Source: Pseudodesulfovibrio sp. S3
GTDB lineage: Bacteria > Desulfobacterota > Desulfovibrionia > Desulfovibrionales > Desulfovibrionaceae
Length of the DNA stretch: 64,000 bases
Direction of reading: 5' to 3'
Assembly (NCBI RefSeq): GCF_004025585.1
Contig: NZ_QTZO01000006.1
Span: 62,001 to 126,000, forward strand
Below the pieces are notes generated by a model. That model was not told where the DNA came from, ran no database searches, and saw nothing but the letters and a program-made list of their open reading frames with translations. Within the stretch, counting starts at the first letter, position 1; every line of letters begins with the position of its first letter. The position numbers and the translations under genes were made by a program. Of the stretch, positions 45,411 to 63,077 are shown in pieces.

Positions 45411-45499
45411 CAGAAAAAGGGTCTAGCTTGATGCTAAGACCTTAATATTCTTGCAGTCAGGAATCGGAATTGAACCGACGATCTACTGATTACGAATTG
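45411..45499 (-). repeat. Attachment site att1: tRNA 3' half plus terminator
   Basis: On the minus strand the sequence runs from an anticodon loop (TTCGTAA) through TCAGTAG and the T arm GTCGGTTCAATTCCGAT. After a diverged acceptor end it continues into a terminator-like hairpin (GTCTTAGC / GCTAGAC) with T5. The arm and loop lengths fit a tRNA, but the 5' half is absent. It marks the left end of the first small element. Confidence 0.8.
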
Positions 45500-45555
45500 T
45501 TGGTGAGGGTGTGGTGATATACATTGTATTTGCCTGAAAACATTCTCTTTATTCG

Positions 45556-45663
45556 ATTGTGGCAGAGTGCGGTATCTTTTGGATACTGCTGAAAACCGCC
45601 TTAAACTGCCTGAAATTGTCCGCATCTGGCGGACAGTGCGTACAATTTGCGTGCAGTTAATGG
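45556..45663 (+). repeat. Element left end with integrase arm-type repeats (copy 1)
   Basis: GCGGTATCTTTTGGATACTG, a GAAAACCG...AACTGCCTGAAA stretch, GTCCGCA and GTGCGTACAATTTGCGTGCAG follow att1 in order. The same order recurs after att2 and att3. The TGCGTACA repeats look like arm-type sites. Confidence 0.7.
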
Positions 45664-45748
45664 GGAACGAGCCAATGCGTTGGGGGCCATTGGCCTAGCT
45701 TTTTCGGCTTTCAGGCTCTTGTTTGGGGATGGCATTGGTGGTGGCAAT

Positions 45749-46315
45749 TTATTCATCAGAGTCAAAATATAAATACCAGTTGTCTTCACCCTCAATTTTT
45801 CTTTGGATCCACCAATGTGATGACCTGATTGCTTTGGGTTCAAAGTCGTCGATGCTATCTACCAAAATGGATGCATCTCTTGGATATGGTTCGTATGCGT
45901 AACCCTTGCATGAACCTGGCGAAAGAAATCCAATGCAACTGGAGTAAAACCGTACACGTACTTCGCCTGTTGGCGAGTACATAACCTGAATACCGTCATC
46001 TATCGAAATTTCTTTGAACAGCTTTCTGTATTGGACAATTCTCTCAGGAGCATCGCTCCGGGAGATTCCATCAGCCAATTTGTACCAGTTGTGACCTACT
46101 CGTATTATGTCGCTGTCTTCTTGCACTTTAGCTATTATTTCATCAAAGATCGCCCGGTTATCAACAAAGTTTTGAATCAAGACTTCATCGGTGTCATGAG
46201 GCGGGAATGCTAGCTCCATAAGGAGCCAACACACACCTACGAGTAAGGTGCAAAGGAATGTAAATGAAAGAAAAATCCATTTAATTGATTTTGCGACTGA
46301 ACGTCCCCAATGCAT
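45749..46315 (-). CDS. Membrane-anchored small protein, possible partner of the toxin-like gene
   Basis: The 188-residue protein has an N-terminal transmembrane anchor (about 11-34, WIFLSFTFLCTLLVGVCWLL) and an outward domain. That domain starts DTDEVLIQNFVDNRAIFDEI, a pattern seen in many short periplasmic proteins of unknown function, and includes two Cys near 129 and 136. It is 72 bases downstream of the toxin-like gene on the same strand. Position and anchoring suggest an immunity or delivery role; the sequence does not prove either. Confidence 0.6.
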   Translation of the reverse strand: MHWGRSVAKSIKWIFLSFTFLCTLLVGVCWLLMELAFPPHDTDEVLIQNFVDNRAIFDEIIAKVQEDSDIIRVGHNWYKLADGISRSDAPERIVQYRKLFKEISIDDGIQVMYSPTGEVRVRFYSSCIGFLSPGSCKGYAYEPYPRDASILVDSIDDFEPKAIRSSHWWIQRKIEGEDNWYLYFDSDE

Positions 46316-46387
46316 ATTTGATCACCACCTCCATCCAAAGGCAAGCGATGGGAGAAATCTCAACTCCCGCGCCTGTCACAAGTGTCA

Positions 46388-47116
46388 TTAAAAAGGGTAA
46401 TCTTGCCCTTTGCGAATCATTTGATTGTCTCGGGGGTCATCAAACCAAGTACGGTACCATCTCCATTCGTGGGTATCTTTTTTCAACTGCCAAGCTCCCG
46501 CTGCCGCACGAGCAAAGGTTACATTGATGCCCATCGTTTGTGTGTAGAGTCCATAGTGGTAATTACCGAAGTCTTCATATTCGGGGTGGCCTTCTTTTTT
46601 GTAGTCATAGTTTTGTTCACTACGAAAATTGTCGTATATCCAAGAACATTTATAGAGGAATGTCAATTCGTCGATACATGCCGCCCGTATGCTGTCGATG
46701 GAGTGTACGCCAGAGAAGTTTGCCTTTTCCAGAAAGTCGTCAACCTCCTTTGCGGCTTTTTGCTGGCATTCTTTTGCAATGCGCTTCGCCTCGGCAATGT
46801 TGGCAGATAAATCTACACCGGGAGGAACAATCATTGCTTCAGCCCTTCCAGAAACTCTATAAGCTGTGAACACCTCTATTTCGCATTTACAGTTTGGATG
46901 CACAGGGCCTGGATTTTCCTCGAACCATAGTCCGTTCATGGCTTGGCACTTGTCGCATGCTTTTGGTTTGGGGTGGTACCGCCAGTATTTCTTGAGCGCA
47001 TCTGGGTCAGTTGTTTTATAGGACTTCCCTGTGGCCGTCGCGGACATGTGTTTAGGCATGCCGTACACCAGTTGGTTTTCTCCAATGTGTTGAACCCATT
47101 GTTCTGACATTTTCAT
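46388..47116 (-). CDS. Toxin-like protein with a CxxC...HPNCKC motif
   Basis: The 242-residue protein has a short N region and then Cys54, Cys57, His73, Cys76 and Cys78 (CDKCQAMNG, VHPNCKCEIE), a likely metal-binding knuckle. The same kind of motif occurs in MuF/SPP1-gp7 head proteins and toxins linked to them. The C-terminal part has HYGLYTQTMG, ARAAAGAW and FDDPRDNQMIRKG. His, Ala-rich helix and DN..G in this order recall the DUF6973 toxin-type domain (tentative). A second, broken copy lies in the next element. I infer an effector; activity is unknown. Confidence 0.55.
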   Translation of the reverse strand: MKMSEQWVQHIGENQLVYGMPKHMSATATGKSYKTTDPDALKKYWRYHPKPKACDKCQAMNGLWFEENPGPVHPNCKCEIEVFTAYRVSGRAEAMIVPPGVDLSANIAEAKRIAKECQQKAAKEVDDFLEKANFSGVHSIDSIRAACIDELTFLYKCSWIYDNFRSEQNYDYKKEGHPEYEDFGNYHYGLYTQTMGINVTFARAAAGAWQLKKDTHEWRWYRTWFDDPRDNQMIRKGQDYPF

Positions 47117-47131
47117 TTCTCTTTGTGAGTG

Positions 47132-47275
47132 GTTTTCGTAACAGCGCCCAACGCGCTGTTCAAAGTTGCGAAAACCGTATCACGGGTTTTCAGGCCAAAA
47201 TGGGCAAAACACGGAGATGTCGGTGAAATGCAGCCTGATGTCGGTCAAATGCACGGCGCGGTCGGTGAAATACAC
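47132..47275 (-). promoter_or_regulatory. Leader hairpin and three 21-bp iterons upstream of the toxin-like gene
   Basis: GTTTTCGTAAC (47132-47142) pairs with GTTGCGAAAAC (47165-47175), and ACAGCGC with GCGCTGT inside. Further upstream GTCGGTGAAATGCA begins at 47219, 47240 and 47261, exactly 21 bases apart (two helical turns), with one or two mismatches. The arrangement suits a cooperative repressor or replication protein. The same layout occurs upstream of the second copy. Confidence 0.7.
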
Positions 47276-47492
47276 CCAAGAAACGGCATTTATCGCTTGA
47301 CAGGTTTTGGGAAAAGGTCGGTTTTCGTGCATTCAGTGCGCTAGTATGTCGTCTTGCAGGAGGGCTGCAGGTAAACTGATGGAAATCAGTAGGTCTAAGC
47401 AGGCAACTTATTGAAATCATGAAGAATGACTCGAAGATGTCCGCAAATTGTCCGCACAAAACAATCAGTTTTGACCCTTTCACTATGAAATA

Positions 47493-47587
47493 GAAAAAGC
47501 CCTAAAGTGACATAACTCACTGAGGGGCTTGATCATTCCGTGGAGCCGGGAATCGGAATTGAACCGACGACCTACTGATTACGAATT
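47493..47587 (-). repeat. Attachment site att2: tRNA 3' half plus terminator
   Basis: This is the cleanest copy. Minus strand: loop TTCGTAA (anticodon CGT, Thr type), stem TCAGT, variable AGGTC, T arm GTCGG-TTCAATT-CCGAT, acceptor TCCCGGC and TCCA. After 17 bases comes the hairpin AGCCCCTCAGTGAG / CACTTTAGGGCT and TTTTTC. No 5' half follows on the right, so it is a junction, not a gene. Confidence 0.85.
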
Positions 47588-47649
47588 TGTTGGTGAGGGC
47601 ATGAAAGAATGGGTGGTATCTGACTAAAAATGTTCTCTTTTCTAGTTGA

Positions 47650-47740
47650 CATCGAGTTGCGGTATCTTTTGGAAACTGCCGAAAACCGTCTAAAACTGCC
47701 TGAAAAAGTCCACATTTTGCGTACAGTTCATAAGGGGCGT
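47650..47740 (+). repeat. Element left end with integrase arm-type repeat (copy 2)
   Basis: GCGGTATCTTTTGGAAACTG, CGAAAACCG, AACTGCCTGAAAAAGTCC and ATTTTGCGTACAGTT align with the ends after att1 and att3. Only one TGCGTACA repeat is kept. Confidence 0.7.
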
Positions 47741-47762
47741 TTTGCCCATTGGCGTCGTCAAA

Positions 47763-48245
47763 TTATAGGTGTTCATTCCCTGTTTTCATGGTGGTGTATT
47801 CAAAGAAATGCCTGCGAAGTGGTGGCAAGGTCGCGAAGCAAAGGACGGCGATGTTGAACGCTGTGGGGATGCCATAGAACAAAGCATTGCCGAGATCCCA
47901 TTTCCCATCAAGAATTAATGAGATACAGGGCCACCCGGGGAAAGCGATACAGGGGATTGAAGCGAGTATGTCCAAAGGACGTCTTTTGTACAGCTCAGGC
48001 GATTTGTTAATGAGCCTGGCAATGAGGTGCGTATTAGCAAGTACGAAAGCAGCCATCGCACCCCATAAAGCCCATGCAAATGGGGTCCAGTAGTTGAAAC
48101 TGAGTGTGATCGCATCAAGCAAAAAAAGGCCGGTACCCATAACTAAAAATGCGCCAACAGCGATTGTCTGGACCGACAGCCCTAAGAGCAAGACCAGGCG
48201 AACAGCTCTAGGTACATTACGATTCAATTGTTCTTGGTAATTCAT
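47763..48245 (-). CDS. Four-helix membrane protein, possible partner of the broken toxin-like gene
   Basis: The 160-residue protein has hydrophobic segments at about 14-36, 50-72, 95-112 and 120-142, and short charged ends. It has no recognised family. It follows the broken toxin-like gene in the place occupied in element 1 by the membrane-anchored protein, so a swapped immunity-type partner is possible. Confidence 0.55.
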   Translation of the reverse strand: MNYQEQLNRNVPRAVRLVLLLGLSVQTIAVGAFLVMGTGLFLLDAITLSFNYWTPFAWALWGAMAAFVLANTHLIARLINKSPELYKRRPLDILASIPCIAFPGWPCISLILDGKWDLGNALFYGIPTAFNIAVLCFATLPPLRRHFFEYTTMKTGNEHL

Positions 48246-48344
48246 GTTGTCTATATGTTATGCTGAGGGGCTGTAGTCAAGCATTGAAAGTGGGGCTGCT
48301 GTTTCGCATACCCACTTCCAATGACGACAAGGAACTCGCCTCGT

Positions 48345-49013
48345 TTACTTGATTAAAGGAGATTTTTGTCCTTTAATGACCATCTCATTGTCTCTGGGGT
48401 CGTCGAACCAAGTTCTCCAGAAGCTTATCTTGGAGGTTAACGAAAATACCTGAGCCGATCCCGCTGCAGCTTGGGTAAAAGAGGCATTCAATCCAAGTGC
48501 TTCCGTATATAGGTCATAGTGATGATTGCCGAAGTCCTCGTATTCGGGATGCCCACCTCGTTTGTAGTCGTATTTGGCTCCATCTTTGAAATTGAAGAAT
48601 ACCTATATGCATTTCAATGAGAAACTTGCTGTGGAATATGGCGGGAAGTTAAAAATGAATGACTCACAAATCCTTTTTATCCGCCTTGCTTCCGCAATAT
48701 TGGCTGCCAAATCGACACCTTGTTGCACAATGATGTCCCGGGATCGTCCCGTGACTTTGATCGCCTCGAACTCTTCAATTTCGCATTTGCAGTTCGGGTG
48801 AACCGGGCCGGGCCGACTTTCAAACCACAGCCCTTTCATCGCTTGGCATTTGTCGCATGCCTGTGGTTTCGGATGATATCGCCAATAAGTCGTTCTATTC
48901 GGCTGGCTCTCGTTCTTGGCGCCCCCACCTGCCACTGCCGACATTTGCTTTGGCAGACCATAAACCAGTTGATCATCCCCGATGTGTTGAACCCATTTCT
49001 CTGCCATCTCCAT
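48345..49013 (-). pseudogene. Broken second copy of the CxxC...HPNCKC toxin-like gene
   Basis: The first 110 codons match the intact copy at 46388-47116 closely (WVQHIGDDQLVYGLPKQMSA; CDKCQAMKG; VHPNCKCEIE; DLAANIAEARRI). The frame then ends at 48603. The C-terminal part resumes in another frame: YDYKRGGHPEYEDFGNHHYD, and FDDPRDNEMVIKG to a stop at 48345. About 50 codons present in the intact copy are missing or scrambled between them. It is therefore a deletion plus frameshift, and loss of activity is likely. Confidence 0.8.
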
Positions 49014-49023
49014 TCTCCTTGTA

Positions 49024-49168
49024 GTTTTCGCGAACAGGGCCCGGTGCGCCGCTCAGAGTTGCGAAAACCGTATCATGGGATTTTGAGTCGAAAAGGGCGA
49101 AACAAGGAGGTGTCGGTGAAATGCAGCACGATGTCGGTCAAATGCACAGTGCGGTCATTGAACTACAC
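49024..49168 (-). promoter_or_regulatory. Leader hairpin and iterons of the second toxin-like copy
   Basis: GTTTTCGCGAAC / GTTGCGAAAAC flank the leader (49024-49068). GTCGGTGAAATGCA-type repeats begin at 49112, 49133 and 49154, again 21 bases apart; the third is the most diverged. Spacing is conserved although the downstream gene is broken. Confidence 0.65.
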
Positions 49169-49340
49169 CAAAGAAACAGTGTTTTTAGCTTGACGGGTTT
49201 TCGAGATAGTGAGTTGGGAGCCTACTGATGGGAATCAGTTGGTCTCAACAATCAACCTGCTGAAATCATGAGACACGGGCATTCATTGTCCGCAGATTGT
49301 TCGCACAGAAAAGTCAGTTTGACACGGCTCATGCAGGGAC

Positions 49341-49436
49341 AGAAAAAGCCCCTCGGTGACATAACTCACTGAGGGGCCTATCTTTTCCTGTTGCCAGAAG
49401 TCGGAATTGAACCGACGACCTACTGATTACGAATTG
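49341..49436 (-). repeat. Attachment site att3: tRNA 3' half plus terminator
   Basis: Same layout as att2 with the anticodon loop, AGGTC and T arm kept and the acceptor end changed (GACTTCTGGCAAC). The terminator is GCCCCTCAGTGAG / CACCGAGGGGC with T5 on the minus strand. It is the left junction of the large element. Confidence 0.85.
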
Positions 49437-49491
49437 GTATGGATGTTTTGGGTGTGTGGCCTGTATTGCTTTGAAAAGATTGATATTGTTT

Positions 49492-56035: not shown

Positions 56036-56284
56036 GTGCCTACAAAGAGCTTGAATGATTACTCGGAAGCAGAGCGGACCCTGATGGCTGAATTTGGCGA
56101 GAGGGTACGCGTATTGAGGGAAAAGGCCGGCCTGTCTCAGGAGGGGCTAGCGGAAGAAGCTGACGCACACAGGACGTATGTCAGCGGTCTAGAACGGGGA
56201 AGGCAGAACATTTCCCTGCTGACGATGAAGAAGTTGGCAGAGGCGTTGTCGGTTGAAATGGTGGAGTTGGTTTCCGGCCTCTAG
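56036..56284 (+). CDS. XRE-family helix-turn-helix regulator
   Basis: The 82-residue product, with a GTG start, has ERVRVLREKAGLSQEGLAEE and RTYVSGLERGRQNISLLTMK, a complete lambda-repressor-type helix-turn-helix. It resembles the short controller proteins of restriction-modification and other accessory systems. AGGAGTTTCAT precedes the GTG. It ends 11 bases before the stop of the convergent recombinase gene. Confidence 0.85.
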   Translation: MPTKSLNDYSEAERTLMAEFGERVRVLREKAGLSQEGLAEEADAHRTYVSGLERGRQNISLLTMKKLAEALSVEMVELVSGL

Positions 56285-56295
56285 GGGCCTCGGCT

Positions 56296-56919
56296 CTAGC
56301 TCAAAATGAGTTCCGCTAGGGGTTGGTTCGCCTCCGGCAGTAAATCGGCGTAGAGGCTGGTCATGTTCAGGCTAGCGTGGCCGAGTTGTTTTTGGACGAA
56401 TCTCAAGCTGTTCGTCTTGGCTAGTAAGTGTGTGGCGTATGTGTGTCGAGCGCAATGAATGGAATAGTGATCAGGTAGCCCTGCGGCTTTGACTGCGTTT
56501 TTGAAAGAAATGCTGAGTGCTGTAGGGGTGAAGTGCTTTCCTGCACGTCCAGCGAACAGAGGGGCGTGGTTATCTGTATCCTGGCCCCACTTCTCTTTTA
56601 GCCGGATAAAGCTGTCGATATGGGCAGCAAGCTTCGTATCGAAGTAGACCACCCTCGGTTTTCCCCGTTTTCCCTTCTTGACGAATAGCGCCCGCTCTGC
56701 ATTGTACTGCTGTACGTCTTTGACCCTCAGGGCCGCGATCTCGTGCACACGTAGTCCGGTTCTGAGAGCCAAATGCACAAGCATATACCGGACGGGCCAA
56801 GTGGTCCGTTTGCGGATCAAATCTGCTTCAGCGCGGGTTATGCAGCATTGGAGAATTTGACCGATTTCGGCCAGCGAAAAGAACTTTTGCCGATTGACTA
56901 AATATTCTGATGTTTTCAT
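56296..56919 (-). CDS. Short tyrosine recombinase (catalytic domain)
   Basis: The 207-residue product has Arg in LRTGLRVHEIAAL, Lys in VKKGKRGKPRV, HCARHTYATHLL (His-x-x-Arg), LGHASLNMT and the nucleophile in TSLYADL, so the active site is complete. The core-binding domain is reduced to about 40 residues, much shorter than XerC/D or phage integrases. Its job is unclear: cassette inversion, dimer resolution or movement of the neighbouring AT-rich genes. Confidence 0.82.
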   Translation of the reverse strand: MKTSEYLVNRQKFFSLAEIGQILQCCITRAEADLIRKRTTWPVRYMLVHLALRTGLRVHEIAALRVKDVQQYNAERALFVKKGKRGKPRVVYFDTKLAAHIDSFIRLKEKWGQDTDNHAPLFAGRAGKHFTPTALSISFKNAVKAAGLPDHYSIHCARHTYATHLLAKTNSLRFVQKQLGHASLNMTSLYADLLPEANQPLAELILS

Positions 56920-57012
56920 ATAAAAGCATAGCAAATTTTTATGATAATGTCAATTTTCATAAAATTTTGCTTTACAGATAGTCTTTATGGAAGAGAAAAA
57001 TCATTTCATTGG

Positions 57013-57687
57013 CTATATGGCAGCAACTACTGCCTCTCTGAGCAAATCTCTTTTTACTAAGCTTTTGCAATCAACTATCTTGATGTGCCCAGAGTTAGAG
57101 GCGATTAGTTTAGCTGTCGATGATATGTCTACAAAAGATATAGTCGCTGAAGCAATAGTATATTTTTGAAAGTAATCTTTTGCATTGTTACGTACATCGC
57201 TTGAACTTTTAATAATCATTTCAGCTTGAGTGTCATTTGATAGGCTTATGTCTTTGCACTTAATGATTCTTACTCGTATTCTTATGCCTATATTTTCAAA
57301 ATAAGTAATTAATCGTGGTATGTTCATTAACTGTTGTGCAATTTCTGTTTCATAGTTAGTTATTTTCCCTAGATGGTTTATAAGCCCAAGAAGCTTGCGT
57401 GGTGGATCGTATATTTCAATAAAGCCGTAGTCGTTTCGTATCTGAAAAGTGGTATGAACAAATGTTTCAATCGGAATAGTTGTTATATTCCCATTGTAAT
57501 CTACAACACTTTCTATCATATGAATTTTTTCAGTGAACTTTGCCTCAATAACATTCTTATTAAGTTCATATAAGGTGAACCCTTGATCTTCGCTATTAGA
57601 AAATTTATGAAGAAGGATTGCGTTTCCTATCTCCTCAAGGCTTCGTTGGCTGCGAAATGATAGCCATCTATATGATTGGCTTTGCAT
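57013..57687 (-). CDS. Third gene of an unrecognised three-gene cassette
   Basis: The 224-residue protein (MQSQSYRWLSFRSQRSLEEI) has no signal or membrane segment and alternates beta-like segments (FTLYELNKNVIEAKFTEKI, FIEIYDPPRKLLG) with a C-terminal IKIVDCKSLVKRDLLREAV. No family recognised. It overlaps the preceding gene by 20 bases, so it is translated with it. Base composition is far more A+T-rich than the chromosome. Confidence 0.75.
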   Translation of the reverse strand: MQSQSYRWLSFRSQRSLEEIGNAILLHKFSNSEDQGFTLYELNKNVIEAKFTEKIHMIESVVDYNGNITTIPIETFVHTTFQIRNDYGFIEIYDPPRKLLGLINHLGKITNYETEIAQQLMNIPRLITYFENIGIRIRVRIIKCKDISLSNDTQAEMIIKSSSDVRNNAKDYFQKYTIASATISFVDISSTAKLIASNSGHIKIVDCKSLVKRDLLREAVVAAI

Positions 57688-58777
57688 TGTGTTGCTCTTC
57701 TCGTATTGAGGAATACACCCTTTGGGCAGTATTTTCGATTAGTCGAAGATATTGAGTTTTTTCGTGTGGTTTTAGTTGTTTGCGGTTTTGAGTGTACCCC
57801 TGGTCTAGTCCCGTATATACGCCGAGTACATTGTATCTAAAATGGGTACAGTCTTTGGCGTTGTGAAATTGAGCTTCAAACTCAAGCTTACTTCTTGGAG
57901 TTGATTGCTTCTCTGCGGTCCACCTAATGCTGGTGATGTAAAAGCCGCTTTGAGCTAGGGATTGAAATTCTTTTGAGGAGAGAAGAGACTCGCCTTTAAG
58001 TATCGCGTTCTCCACTATTCCGACTAGCTCCTGTTCTGCTGCGGAGTAATCATCATCGGAGGAAGCGTCATCATCCGTTGTGTTTGTTGTGTCAGCGTGG
58101 TTGACGTTAATTTTGGTAACTCCGTGCAACTTGTAGCCTTCGATGCTGGATATCAGACGTTTGAAAAAATCGGAGCGTATTTCGTGAGAAGGAATGCCAG
58201 AAAAATCGAGGGATTCTTTTTCCATAGGACCCGTTTTCTGCTGTTCAATTTTGTCAATGATTGTATCAACAATATCATGTACTCGGTCATTTGCAGGATG
58301 GCGTATTTTAGTTTTTCCATCTACTATCTCTATCTCAATCTTTGCTTCTTTATGAGTCCTCTGTCGAAGTCTTGTCATCGATCTGTCAATTTCTGTGTAT
58401 TGGACGTCAATGATGACTTTATTGTCTATGATCGCCATAGAATATGCTTCATTATTATTGTCGCGTGCTAATTTCAGAGATTCAAACGCATTGTCGATCT
58501 CTTCTTTCTTTACCACTTCACTCAAAGATGTCGATGCCGTTTTTTCTGATCTTGCTGATGAGGAAACGGTTTCTATAAGATGGGTATAGTCATTATAGTC
58601 ATGTGGCAATGATGAAATATAATCTACCAGATGCTCTCTATTAGCTTCTTCCGACACAATAATTCCTCTTCCTCTCAGTATCTCAACCAAAAGGTTGATT
58701 GTAACTCTTTTTTTTGTTGAGTATAGAGCGTCATAAATATCTGCATCTGACGCATAAAATAAAGAATTATTATTCAT
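57668..58777 (-). CDS. Second gene of the three-gene cassette, SAP/HeH-like N terminus
   Basis: The 369-residue product has residues about 10-55 (ADIYDALYSTKKRVTINLLV, then ILRGRGIIVSEEANREHLVD) resembling a short helix-extended-helix or SAP-type nucleic-acid-binding module. An acidic linker (TDDDASSDDDY) at about 234-245 precedes a C-terminal domain (SGFYITSIRWTAEK, RYNVLGVYTGL). The overall family is not recognised. It overlaps both neighbours and is of the same unusual composition. Confidence 0.75.
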   Translation of the reverse strand: MNNNSLFYASDADIYDALYSTKKRVTINLLVEILRGRGIIVSEEANREHLVDYISSLPHDYNDYTHLIETVSSSARSEKTASTSLSEVVKKEEIDNAFESLKLARDNNNEAYSMAIIDNKVIIDVQYTEIDRSMTRLRQRTHKEAKIEIEIVDGKTKIRHPANDRVHDIVDTIIDKIEQQKTGPMEKESLDFSGIPSHEIRSDFFKRLISSIEGYKLHGVTKINVNHADTTNTTDDDASSDDDYSAAEQELVGIVENAILKGESLLSSKEFQSLAQSGFYITSIRWTAEKQSTPRSKLEFEAQFHNAKDCTHFRYNVLGVYTGLDQGYTQNRKQLKPHEKTQYLRLIENTAQRVYSSIREEQHNAKPII

Positions 58778-59753
58778 ACCGCATCCCTATCTCTACTGTT
58801 GAGTAGCTTGTAACAATATTAGTTATTCTGCGTAACGAAATAGACTTTATTTTTTGTGCGAAAAAATCATCATTTCTCATGCTAATATAATCTTTAACCG
58901 CATTTTCAAACATTACATTTGCAATAGGTGATGCGTTTGGTAAGTTGATCATTATTTTTTTAGATTCGTTTAATAGTTGGTAAGTGCATAAATAATCAAT
59001 TAGATAAATAAACTCTTCCTTCGTATTCCCAGGAGTTCTCATGTAAACGGATATTCCAAATCCTTTTGATGCATCTCCGTCAATATTGTAGCGCATTATT
59101 TGCCATGGGCCTGTCAGCATCTCCAGCGTTGCCGGGTGGCTAACAGGGGCGTGCGCGTGTTTGAGTCTTGAGGTGGTAGGGTAGTAAAATGAACAGTTTT
59201 GGCTATCAGGTATCTTGGTGCAGTCCTCTGCGCCTCTCAGGGTTGCAATGTCATTGGTGACAGTTTTTAGGTAACAAATGTCGTAGGGGGAGAGCACGAA
59301 AATTTTATTTTTAGGTGCTATATTAACTCGTCGCATTGCCTTGTCGAGCAATTGACCAAATTCTAAGTCGTACCCTCCGTCATGGTTATATATGAAGAGA
59401 AGCCCAAAAACTTCATAGTTTTCAGGCGGAGCGTACAGTGTTTGCCATTCGCCACTTACCTTTGCGCACTCGATAGCCATGTCTAGGCTTTGGATCGCTC
59501 CGCAAATCTGGTCCCGTGTGATCGATCCTTTTTTGTAGCTTTTGAGATCGGTATTTATACAGGATATACTGTTTCGGTATGGCTCAATATAATGAAAAAC
59601 TACATCACTAGGATGTGTTTTTTTACTGTGCTTTTGGGGGCAAACGCATTTCCAGTCTACATTCATCGGTCCTTTAGTAGTCCACTTGAATTGCTTAAAA
59701 ATATGGCTAGAAATGTCCTCTGCCATTATTGCAATATTAGCTGTTTCACTCAT
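58770..59753 (-). CDS. First gene of the three-gene cassette, possible PD-(D/E)XK nuclease-like protein
   Basis: The 327-residue product has HPSDVVFHYIEPYR and then ISCINTDLKSYKKG: Asp50 followed by Asp69-Leu-Lys71 on adjacent predicted strands, the spacing of a PD-(D/E)XK core. ITRDQICGAIQSLDMAIECA follows as a helix. The rest (about 110-327) is unrecognised. A nuclease role is inference from this pattern only. It overlaps the second gene by 8 bases and is preceded by a 307-base AT-rich divergent region. Confidence 0.7.
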   Translation of the reverse strand: MSETANIAIMAEDISSHIFKQFKWTTKGPMNVDWKCVCPQKHSKKTHPSDVVFHYIEPYRNSISCINTDLKSYKKGSITRDQICGAIQSLDMAIECAKVSGEWQTLYAPPENYEVFGLLFIYNHDGGYDLEFGQLLDKAMRRVNIAPKNKIFVLSPYDICYLKTVTNDIATLRGAEDCTKIPDSQNCSFYYPTTSRLKHAHAPVSHPATLEMLTGPWQIMRYNIDGDASKGFGISVYMRTPGNTKEEFIYLIDYLCTYQLLNESKKIMINLPNASPIANVMFENAVKDYISMRNDDFFAQKIKSISLRRITNIVTSYSTVEIGMRYE

Positions 59754-60061: not shown

Positions 60062-60892
60062 ATGAAGCTCAAAATAGAAGAAAATAGTTCTGCGGATTAT
60101 ATTTCGGCCCGAATTAAGAGCACGATCTTGTATCCAAAAACAACAAAAGCTAATGACAAGCTTTCCCGAGACGAAGAACAGTCTAGAGGGCGAGAGAGAG
60201 CATTTTGGTCGTTTTATTTGGGCAGCTTGTCAGACGATGATGTTATGAAAATTATGACTCCAAGCCTTGTGAGGTTTTTAAATGAGAGTGATTCGTTGGA
60301 CAGCTATAATAAAAAGTGGGATGCGTGCAAAAAAAAGATATATACAGTCTACTCTTTGATGAGGTTGATATACTCCGGAACATATTATCAGGGTCAGCCG
60401 ATGAGCTATTTGGCAGCTGTTGAGAAGTATGTTGATCGCGCAATACATGAGTATGTGAGTGCCCCAGAGCTCGTTGAAAGTGGTGTTTTTGGCAACGAGA
60501 CCTGTGATGAGCTTGCAAGAATACCAGAAGATAGGAAATATAAGATCAATACTAGCTCAGTAAAAAATCATTGGAACGAATTGCGAGAAGTGGCTCATAT
60601 CTGCACAGCTTGGTATTCAGTGAAGCCAGGTGGCGCTGAGAGCAATTCAGAACGCCGTGTTCGACTGCTGGAGGTGCTGAGGCTAGCGAGTGCGCTGTAT
60701 GATTTCGGAACCAAGCATGTTGTTCCCAAGAGTCGTGGAGCGCTCCTTGATCCAGCAACGACATGGACTCTCCCTGATAGCTTTGACAGCTTTGGCCTTT
60801 GGGATGATGCGCTTATTTTGCTAAGCCGCTCAGACTTCGAGTTTTATTCCGTCAATTGTTTTTTCCTTGATCAGATGGAAGGGCTTGATTGA
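60062..60892 (+). CDS. Hypothetical protein divergent from the three-gene cassette
   Basis: The 276-residue soluble, mostly helical protein (MKLKIEENSSADYISARIKS; LRLASALYDFGTKHVVPKSR) belongs to no family I recognise. Its composition is like the cassette and it shares its control region. It may be a fourth component or separate cargo. Confidence 0.65.
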   Translation: MKLKIEENSSADYISARIKSTILYPKTTKANDKLSRDEEQSRGRERAFWSFYLGSLSDDDVMKIMTPSLVRFLNESDSLDSYNKKWDACKKKIYTVYSLMRLIYSGTYYQGQPMSYLAAVEKYVDRAIHEYVSAPELVESGVFGNETCDELARIPEDRKYKINTSSVKNHWNELREVAHICTAWYSVKPGGAESNSERRVRLLEVLRLASALYDFGTKHVVPKSRGALLDPATTWTLPDSFDSFGLWDDALILLSRSDFEFYSVNCFFLDQMEGLD

Positions 60893-60960: not shown

Positions 60961-61200
60961 ATGAAGGACGGACATCCCACTTATACACGCATAGAGCGGA
61001 GCCATTGGCTCAAGATGGGACAGGCAATGAGTATGCTCAATGTCTGCCGTGATACCATGCGCTCTTATTGTGTGCAGGGGCTTGTCCGAGCGGAAAAGCT
61101 TCCGTCTGGTCATTGGCGAATAGAGCAAGGGAGCATTGAGCAACTCTTGCAATGCAGAGATGAGTTGATTGTTGAACACTTGCGGAGACTTATGCTATGA
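60961..61200 (+). CDS. Excisionase-type helix-turn-helix protein
   Basis: The 79-residue product has MGQAMSMLNVCRDTMRSYCV and LVRAEKLPSGHWRIEQGSIE, a MerR/HTH_17-type DNA-binding fold as in excisionases. It overlaps the integrase by 4 bases (ATGA), so the two are co-expressed. It would bias the integrase towards excision. Confidence 0.8.
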   Translation: MKDGHPTYTRIERSHWLKMGQAMSMLNVCRDTMRSYCVQGLVRAEKLPSGHWRIEQGSIEQLLQCRDELIVEHLRRLML

Positions 61201-62207
61201 AAGTAGGCATAATGGGACTCCGTAAGCCCTTTAAAAGAGGTAACAAGTGGTACTATGAAATCAACCGGAAACGGATGAGCCTTCGTACCTCGAAAAAGTC
61301 TGAAGCCATGCAGCTCTTTGCTGAGATTGTCCGGCTATATCAATCCGGTCGTCTTGAAGAGCTGAAGCAAGAGGAATGCAAGGTTTCTCTTGGGCAGTTT
61401 GAAGACGAATACCTTGTTTGGGCTGAGTCTACCCAAGAGCCGAAGACATTTCAGGCCAACCGGCTTGCGCTGCGTAAGCTGCTAGAGGTTGAGAAGCGTT
61501 CGGTTCAGTTGGAGGGCTTAGGGTTCAGGTCGTTGGACAACCTCGTTGCCAAGTGTAAGGGCAATAGTCTGAAGTCAACGACAATCAATAACTACATCCG
61601 GCACATTCGAGCTGTCTTCAACAAGGCCGTTGATTGGGATTACGTGAAAGAGAATCCCTTCAAAGGCTACAAAGAGTTGAGGGCTGCCAAGCGGCCACCC
61701 GCGTTCCTTTCCGCACAGGAATGCACGAATCTCATCAAATCCATAGAGGATACAGAACTTCGCCGTTTTGTGATTGCTTTGCTGTACACAGGGCGGCGCA
61801 GGGGAGAGCTGTTTGCGCTTGAATGGGCAGATATCGATTTCGAACGGGATTGCTATCTCGTTCGCAAGAGTAAGACTCATTTGGCAAAGCGTTATCCAAT
61901 GCATCCTGAGTTCCGTGCAGTCCTGAAATCCTTCGATGACCGCCAGGGGCGTGTTTTTAAGCATTGGGTACACCCGGACACATTAACCGGGCTTGTGAAG
62001 CAGGCTTTGGTTGATGCCGGGCATCCTGACATGCGTTTGCACGACCTTCGACACACGTTCGCGTCGAATCTGGCGGAGGCAGGTGAATCGCTTCAGGCGA
62101 TCGGTGAGCTATTGGGGCACACCGACAAACGGACTACGGAGATTTATGCTCATTTATCTGATCATCATCTCCGGGCGTCGCTGAATCGTTTGAAGCTGGA
62201 TGTCTAA
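61197..62207 (+). CDS. int: Tyrosine integrase of the 13.5-kb element
   Basis: The 336-residue product has an N-terminal arm-binding part (MGLRKPFKRGNKWYYEINRK) and a core-binding domain at about 65-150. The catalytic domain has Arg in YTGRRRGELFAL, Lys in KSKTH, HDLRHTFASNL, LLGHTDKRTTE and Tyr in IYAHLSDH. All active-site residues are present. It lies 640 bases from att4, and the TGCGTACA repeats near both ends are its probable arm sites. It could also act in trans on the two small elements. Confidence 0.93.
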   Translation: MKVGIMGLRKPFKRGNKWYYEINRKRMSLRTSKKSEAMQLFAEIVRLYQSGRLEELKQEECKVSLGQFEDEYLVWAESTQEPKTFQANRLALRKLLEVEKRSVQLEGLGFRSLDNLVAKCKGNSLKSTTINNYIRHIRAVFNKAVDWDYVKENPFKGYKELRAAKRPPAFLSAQECTNLIKSIEDTELRRFVIALLYTGRRRGELFALEWADIDFERDCYLVRKSKTHLAKRYPMHPEFRAVLKSFDDRQGRVFKHWVHPDTLTGLVKQALVDAGHPDMRLHDLRHTFASNLAEAGESLQAIGELLGHTDKRTTEIYAHLSDHHLRASLNRLKLDV

Positions 62208-62781: not shown

Positions 62782-62800
62782 CATGTTAATCAAATGAAGA

Positions 62801-62889
62801 AAAGCCCCTCGGTGACATAACTCACTGAGGGGCTTAGCTTTTCCTGGAGCCAGGAGTCGGAGTTGAACCGATGACCTATTGATTGCGAA
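62801..62889 (-). repeat. Attachment site att4: diverged tRNA 3' half plus terminator
   Basis: The minus strand reads CAATCAATAGGTCATCGGTT, then CAACTCCGACTCCTGGCTCCA, with several changes from att2 in the anticodon arm. Then comes the hairpin AGCCCCTCAGTGAG / CACCGAGGGGCT and TTTTC. It is the right junction of the large element. No 5' tRNA half follows, so the intact tRNA is not here. Confidence 0.75.
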
Positions 62890-63077
62890 ATGGAATATGA
62901 CCATAATGATAGCCGGTTGGTTTGTAGTTCGAATTGACATAACTCCTGAGTGGGATCAACTTAGATTAATTGTAACTATCGTCCTGTTTCTGAACATTCC
63001 AGACGTTAGCCCCTGTGACAATCCCTGTGGCTGGTTTCAGGCATTGGAGAAATTGATATTTGCCGAAAGAGGTAGTT

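Follow-up and report, generated by a model that had tools for sequence, protein, structure and literature searches.

Evidence for a divergent Rst_3HP cassette in Pseudodesulfovibrio sp. S3, with a predicted PD-(D/E)XK nuclease, a GapS4b-like partner and a predicted RdgC-type fold

Which system is encoded by three overlapping, A+T-rich genes on an apparent mobile element of Pseudodesulfovibrio sp. S3, and how might it work? The genes lie in a 64,000-nucleotide stretch of contig NZ_QTZO01000006.1 (positions 62,001 to 126,000; this whole stretch is called the window, and positions refer to it unless stated otherwise). A preliminary description, made from the letters of the sequence, had proposed them as an undescribed defence system, with no named system recognised. 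Our analysis revealed that the open reading frames (ORFs), their lengths and their overlaps of 8 and 20 bases are exactly as described there (Table 1), and that the cassette region at 57-60 kb has a GC content of 37-41%, compared with 54-63% in 37 of the 44 one-kb windows at 1-44 kb. The system itself, on the other hand, is already named. Each protein matched its own PADLOC model over nearly full length, Hp1 with PDLC03004 (2.7e-65), Hp2 with PDLC03005 (6.2e-50) and Hp3 with PDLC03006 (1.5e-8), and the three models are consecutive entries of PADLOC-DB. Since, in addition, the gene order recurs in other loci, the cassette is more than a chance arrangement. Rst_3HP is present as a system in both PADLOC and DefenseFinder, and in the Vibrio phage record PQ189388 the homologous genes, which our profiles also recovered, are labelled Rst_3HP__Hp1, Hp2 and Hp3. 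The cassette is almost certainly a divergent member of Rst_3HP, a named anti-phage system whose prefix we take to stand for Rousset.

Rst_3HP was reported in 2022 as a system of the P2-phage hotspot that protects E. coli from phage P1; P1 is given there as the phage protected against among the eight that made up the panel, and the 3HP proteins are described as having "no clear predicted domain" (Rousset et al. 2022, PMC9122126). In the DefenseFinder paper, Rst_3HP is counted among the systems encoded in majority on prophages (PMC9090908). The P2 defence hotspot is placed between gpA and the portal gene gpQ, and two relatives in our collection, one from a Klebsiella P2-like phage and the other from an E. 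coli plasmid that carries phage genes, both lie with the portal gene to one side and the replication endonuclease to the other. The reported P1 protection is tied to the PADLOC model names through the shared names (3HP, Hp1-3) and the hotspot. By this identity, the earlier proposal of defence on a mobile element gains support, and the window's copy may act against phages as the E. coli system is reported to do.

To characterize the conservation of the gene order, relatives were collected through Hp1, which had 297 at E <= 0.001; direct searches returned only five matches for Hp2 and three for Hp3. The 81 loci, excluding the window's own, came from 67 viral contigs, two genome contigs, four phage records and eight plasmid records, the annotated regions being taken from four of the eight phage and eight of the 21 plasmid records with an Hp1 match. 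These loci, all found through Hp1, say nothing on Hp2 or Hp3 occurring alone; they are not independent, and those on viral contigs are viral by choice of collection. Hp2 followed Hp1 in 78 of the 81 loci and Hp3 came next in 76, the five shortfalls (L011, L055, L070, L071 and L073) being contig ends, and the proposed three-gene unit does recur elsewhere. The ORFs overlapped at the Hp1-Hp2 junction in 63 of 78 loci and at the Hp2-Hp3 junction in 56 of 76, both counts being upper bounds, with starts set at the first possible codon. No methyltransferase is part of the conserved three-gene unit. Carriers include P2-like phages, filamentous Pseudomonas phages, and IncR and IncN plasmids. Among 395 genomes drawn from the window's phylum, Hp1 occurred in its own genome only, which fits horizontal acquisition. 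In the 13-kb records of the filamentous Pseudomonas phages 54-4 and 99-2 (L005 and L008), the complete operon sits at one end, a large cargo for a filamentous phage.

The preliminary description had also hinted at two-gene nuclease systems such as GAPS4, and Hp1 and Hp2 do appear as remote homologues of the GapS4 pair. The window's Hp1 matched the NCBIfam GapS4a model at 28.8 bits (E 6.7e-7), short of the curated cut-off of 270 bits; the window's Hp2 gave no NCBIfam GapS4b row (cut-off 300 bits), and a plasmid-borne E. coli Hp2 matched GapS4b (NF047934) at 23.5 bits (2.2e-5). A true GapS4a (347 bits) was present in one of 369 genomes of another class, and its neighbour in this locus (L108) is a true GapS4b (429 bits) with an 8-nt overlap; together with two plasmid loci (L109 and L110) it formed our GapS4 comparison set. 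Profile-profile comparison by hhalign gave 96.9% for Hp1/GapS4a and 88.6% for Hp2/GapS4b, with maxima of 1.3% and 2.3%, respectively, in 60 column shuffles of each; four mismatched pairs gave no more than 0.5%. As read from alignments, Hp1 shares E3, the C/H residues and the first Asp with the three GapS4a proteins, which carry S-x-K (SVK, SAK and SAK in L108, L109 and L110) where Hp1 has an invariant D-x-K. Three results count against the kinship: an E. coli Hp1 (L078) had no NCBIfam row, a Vibrio Hp2 (L007) had none at E <= 0.1, and hmmsearch of the three GapS4 loci with the 3HP profiles missed GapS4a and GapS4b. The Hp3 profile likewise found nothing in these loci, which says little since its sister profiles missed the known pair too. 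The gene tables show no third operon gene in any of the three GapS4 loci, the gene after the pair lying on the opposite strand in L109 and L110, and a 171-aa ORF following 108 nt on in L108. From these sequence comparisons, we conclude that 3HP probably stands beside GAPS4 as a sister system with one subunit more, and is not a GAPS4 member.

One alignment was made for each of the three proteins. That of Hp1 has 93 rows, namely the window protein, 53 homologues drawn from the 297 (120 listed) and 39 locus proteins, out of 40 that remained once those more than 85% alike were taken out, the truncated L070 being dropped. That of Hp2 holds 39 of 42 locus proteins that passed the same filter, P0121, P0124, P0125 and the window's own, without P0122 (its own fragment) and the truncated P0123, and that of Hp3 holds 39 of 42 locus proteins, P0127, P0128 and the window's own.

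The AlphaFold model of Hp1 (pLDDT 91.6, pTM 0.89) has a predicted alpha-beta-beta-beta-alpha-beta core at about residues 1-160, with acidic residues and a (D/E)xK on adjacent strands, as in PD-(D/E)XK endonucleases. The predicted active site consists of E3, D50 and D69-x-K71. D50 and D69-x-K71, which had been singled out from the letters as a possible nuclease signature, fall on or next to neighbouring strands (E46-49/E51-56 and E63-73) in the predicted fold, and the presumed catalytic residues are invariant among the aligned Hp1 homologues. Structural neighbours of the core include the restriction enzymes FokI, HindIII, MspJI and EcoO109I. Hp1 is very likely a PD-(D/E)XK nuclease effector, and would act by cutting DNA. 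A second, alpha/beta domain at about residues 156-315 is possibly an inactive second endonuclease-like fold. Residues about 155-315 also align with Avs3 and with an RNA-polymerase chain E, presumably RPB5.

Hp2, as a GapS4b-like protein, would be the partner that binds Hp1. Its N-terminal region has a conserved RG(I/V) motif followed by S, partly seen in GapS4b too, and this may be what had been taken for a SAP/HeH module. Such a module found no support in any profile match, being absent from the Pfam rows for the window's Hp2 (E up to 10) and from the 25 families shown, out of 33, for 43 Hp2 proteins (E up to 0.1). PF26110 was found on two of the five direct Hp2 database matches. DUF4518 matched eight of the 43 Hp2 proteins weakly at residues about 10-104 (best 1.5e-5, under the cut-off), among them the homologues L017, L022, L026, L037 and L041, with no match in the window's own Hp2.

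Hp3 had been left as a protein of no recognised kind. Its predicted fold is that of RdgC, with which it aligns over 205 of its 224 residues, and also aligns with Iml3 and CENP-L. RdgC forms a ring-shaped dimer, binds DNA without specificity and restrains RecA. At the sequence level no similarity to RdgC was detectable: window Hp3 gave no PF04381 row up to E 10, this family was absent from the 17 matched by 42 Hp3 members (E up to 0.1), and hhalign with E. coli RdgC gave 0.1%. Window Hp3 is 10-22% identical to the 39 aligned locus proteins, and 70% and 59% identical to two metagenomic proteins. Phages also encode several proteins with an Hp3-like fold whose annotation reads recombination protein or exonuclease. 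Judged by its predicted RdgC/Iml3/CENP-L-type fold, possibly also that of lambda RexA, Hp3 likely binds DNA, and a DNA-binding component had been postulated earlier; that it serves as a DNA-binding sensor is plausible, at a little under an even chance. Of 59 genomes from the phylum, 22 have a match to RdgC itself (PF04381), and the window's own genome has none; the 20 matches fetched (L084-L103) cover about the first half only, within model positions 7-167 of 298.

Based on these features, we propose that Hp1, Hp2 and Hp3 would assemble into a single complex that stays inactive on host DNA. Together with Hp2, Hp3 would recognise a DNA form made in phage or plasmid replication or recombination, probably by binding or encircling the DNA, and recognition would release Hp1, so that DNA is cut and infection stopped. 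As a whole, this scheme of nuclease, partner and DNA-binding sensor in one anti-phage complex seems reasonably probable, and a replication or recombination intermediate as the trigger is a tentative suggestion. It is conceivable, with some doubt, that 3HP and GAPS4 form two branches within a single superfamily of DNA-surveillance nucleases, of which the 3HP branch gained an RdgC/RexA/CENP-L-type clamp, Hp3, as its sensor, perhaps derived from a phage RdgC. The result would be a Rex-like exclusion with a DNA-cutting effector, in which Hp3 loads on recombination or replication intermediates needed by phages such as P1, and recruits or activates Hp1-Hp2. RexB, the effector of Rex exclusion, is a membrane protein. 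To our knowledge, no RdgC, lambda RexA or Iml3-Chl4 (CENP-L/N) protein is a partner of a PD-(D/E)XK nuclease.

The tightly overlapping operon would also suit the stoichiometric partners of a toxin-antitoxin-like abortive system, in which Hp1 is a toxin held by Hp2 and/or Hp3, is freed when a phage product inactivates a partner, and attacks host DNA; a fast-changing Hp3 would fit the role of an inhibitor or of a target mimic. A toxin-antitoxin pair nevertheless needs less than two conserved partners of which one has a predicted DNA-binding fold, and the want, by gene tables, of an Hp3-type gene in all three GapS4 loci suggests that a related nuclease can be kept harmless without Hp3, so that we regard this explanation as unlikely. 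It is more doubtful still that Hp2 and Hp3 recognise a target by its sequence or modification state for Hp1 to cut in foreign DNA, in the manner of a restriction system. The restriction enzymes among the structural neighbours of the PD-(D/E)XK core and the A+T-rich mobile location would agree with it, but the conserved unit has no methyltransferase, and a broad restriction would be expected to affect more than P1 out of the eight phages of the 2022 report.

The association of RdgC with recombination, the annotation of several phage Hp3-like folds as recombination proteins or exonucleases, and the many phages among the carriers (with the largest collection searched viral by design) would be expected of a non-defence module, in which an RdgC-like clamp and a nuclease aid the element's own recombination or maintenance. 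We consider this very improbable: an E. coli system of the same kind is reported to protect against P1, relatives are found in the P2 defence hotspot, flanked by portal and replication genes, and Hp1 is distributed in the phylum as would be expected of cargo.

The XRE/solo recombinase and int/xis flanks given in the preliminary description were confirmed by Pfam (Table 1). Repeats resembling the 3' end of tRNA-Thr occur at 45448, 47496, 49344 and 62800, the series occupying 45448-49481 and 62800-62896. On the same contig, a more distant copy is present near contig position 129640, and about 168954-169029 holds an intact tRNA-Thr(CGT) gene; ARAGORN found no tRNA in the window or the next 18 kb. 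Because the copies at 49344 and 62800 enclose both cassette and integrase, we infer an element of ~13.5 kb, which would be one of a tandem series at tRNA-Thr, and several integrative elements or remnants seem to be stacked at this single tRNA-Thr(CGT) site. In a neighbouring remnant, 46388-47116 encodes a protein with an Ntox44 (bacterial toxin 44) C-terminus, and the DNA at and before the start of this gene is repeated about 1.9 kb away with 77-81% identity (repeats 47040-49201).

Table 1. Cassette genes, neighbouring genes and presumed attachment sites (window positions)
Feature	Position	Strand	Remarks
Hp1	59753..58770	−	327 aa; first gene of cassette
Hp2	58777..57668	−	369 aa; second gene; 8-nt overlap with Hp1
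Hp3	57687..57013	−	224 aa; third gene; 20-nt overlap with Hp2
Tyrosine recombinase	56296..56934	−	212 aa; Phage_integrase 7.5e-28; neighbour, outside system
XRE/Cro-type regulator	56036..56284	+	HTH_3 3.5e-14; neighbour
ORF	60062-60892		276 aa; between cassette and xis; no row in Pfam, NCBIfam or PHROGs
xis-like HTH_17 protein of carrier	60961..61200	+	HTH_17 2.4e-6
Integrase of carrier	61197..62207	+	Phage_integrase 7.6e-24
Left tRNA-Thr-like repeat	49344..49440		direct repeat family D1; presumed attachment site
Right tRNA-Thr-like repeat	62800..62896		direct repeat family D1; 89% identical to left; presumed attachment site

The system is thus a named one with anti-phage activity reported in 2022, and the window cassette is a new, distant member of it. 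In the portion of the open-licence PMC literature that bears on the name Rst_3HP, we met no mechanism for it, nor the reading of an RdgC-fold sensor with a GapS4-like nuclease, which does not imply its absence from print. With the predicted parts, a testable scheme takes the place of three 'hypothetical proteins'; it ties 3HP to GAPS4 and puts a predicted DNA-binding fold of the RdgC/kinetochore, and possibly RexA, type into a defence system with a nuclease. If true, it would give a handle on how such systems distinguish phage DNA from host DNA.

Among other nuclease systems, Shedu (SduA), Hachiman (HamA) and Can2/Card1 showed no sequence relation to Hp1, a profile search of PDB sequences with the Hp1 homologues giving no match, and their partner proteins differ from those of 3HP. 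E. coli RdgC is 79 residues longer than Hp3, whose fold is predicted to be of the same type. With GAPS4, 3HP shares a remotely homologous pair in the same order and with the same kind of short overlap; it differs in scores far below the NCBIfam cut-offs and in having Hp3. Compared with Rst_3HP as described, the window's Hp3 is very divergent and the cassette apparently resides on a tRNA-Thr integrative element and not on a P2-like prophage; nevertheless, all three proteins match, the order is the same, the genes overlap, and the setting is likewise a mobile element.
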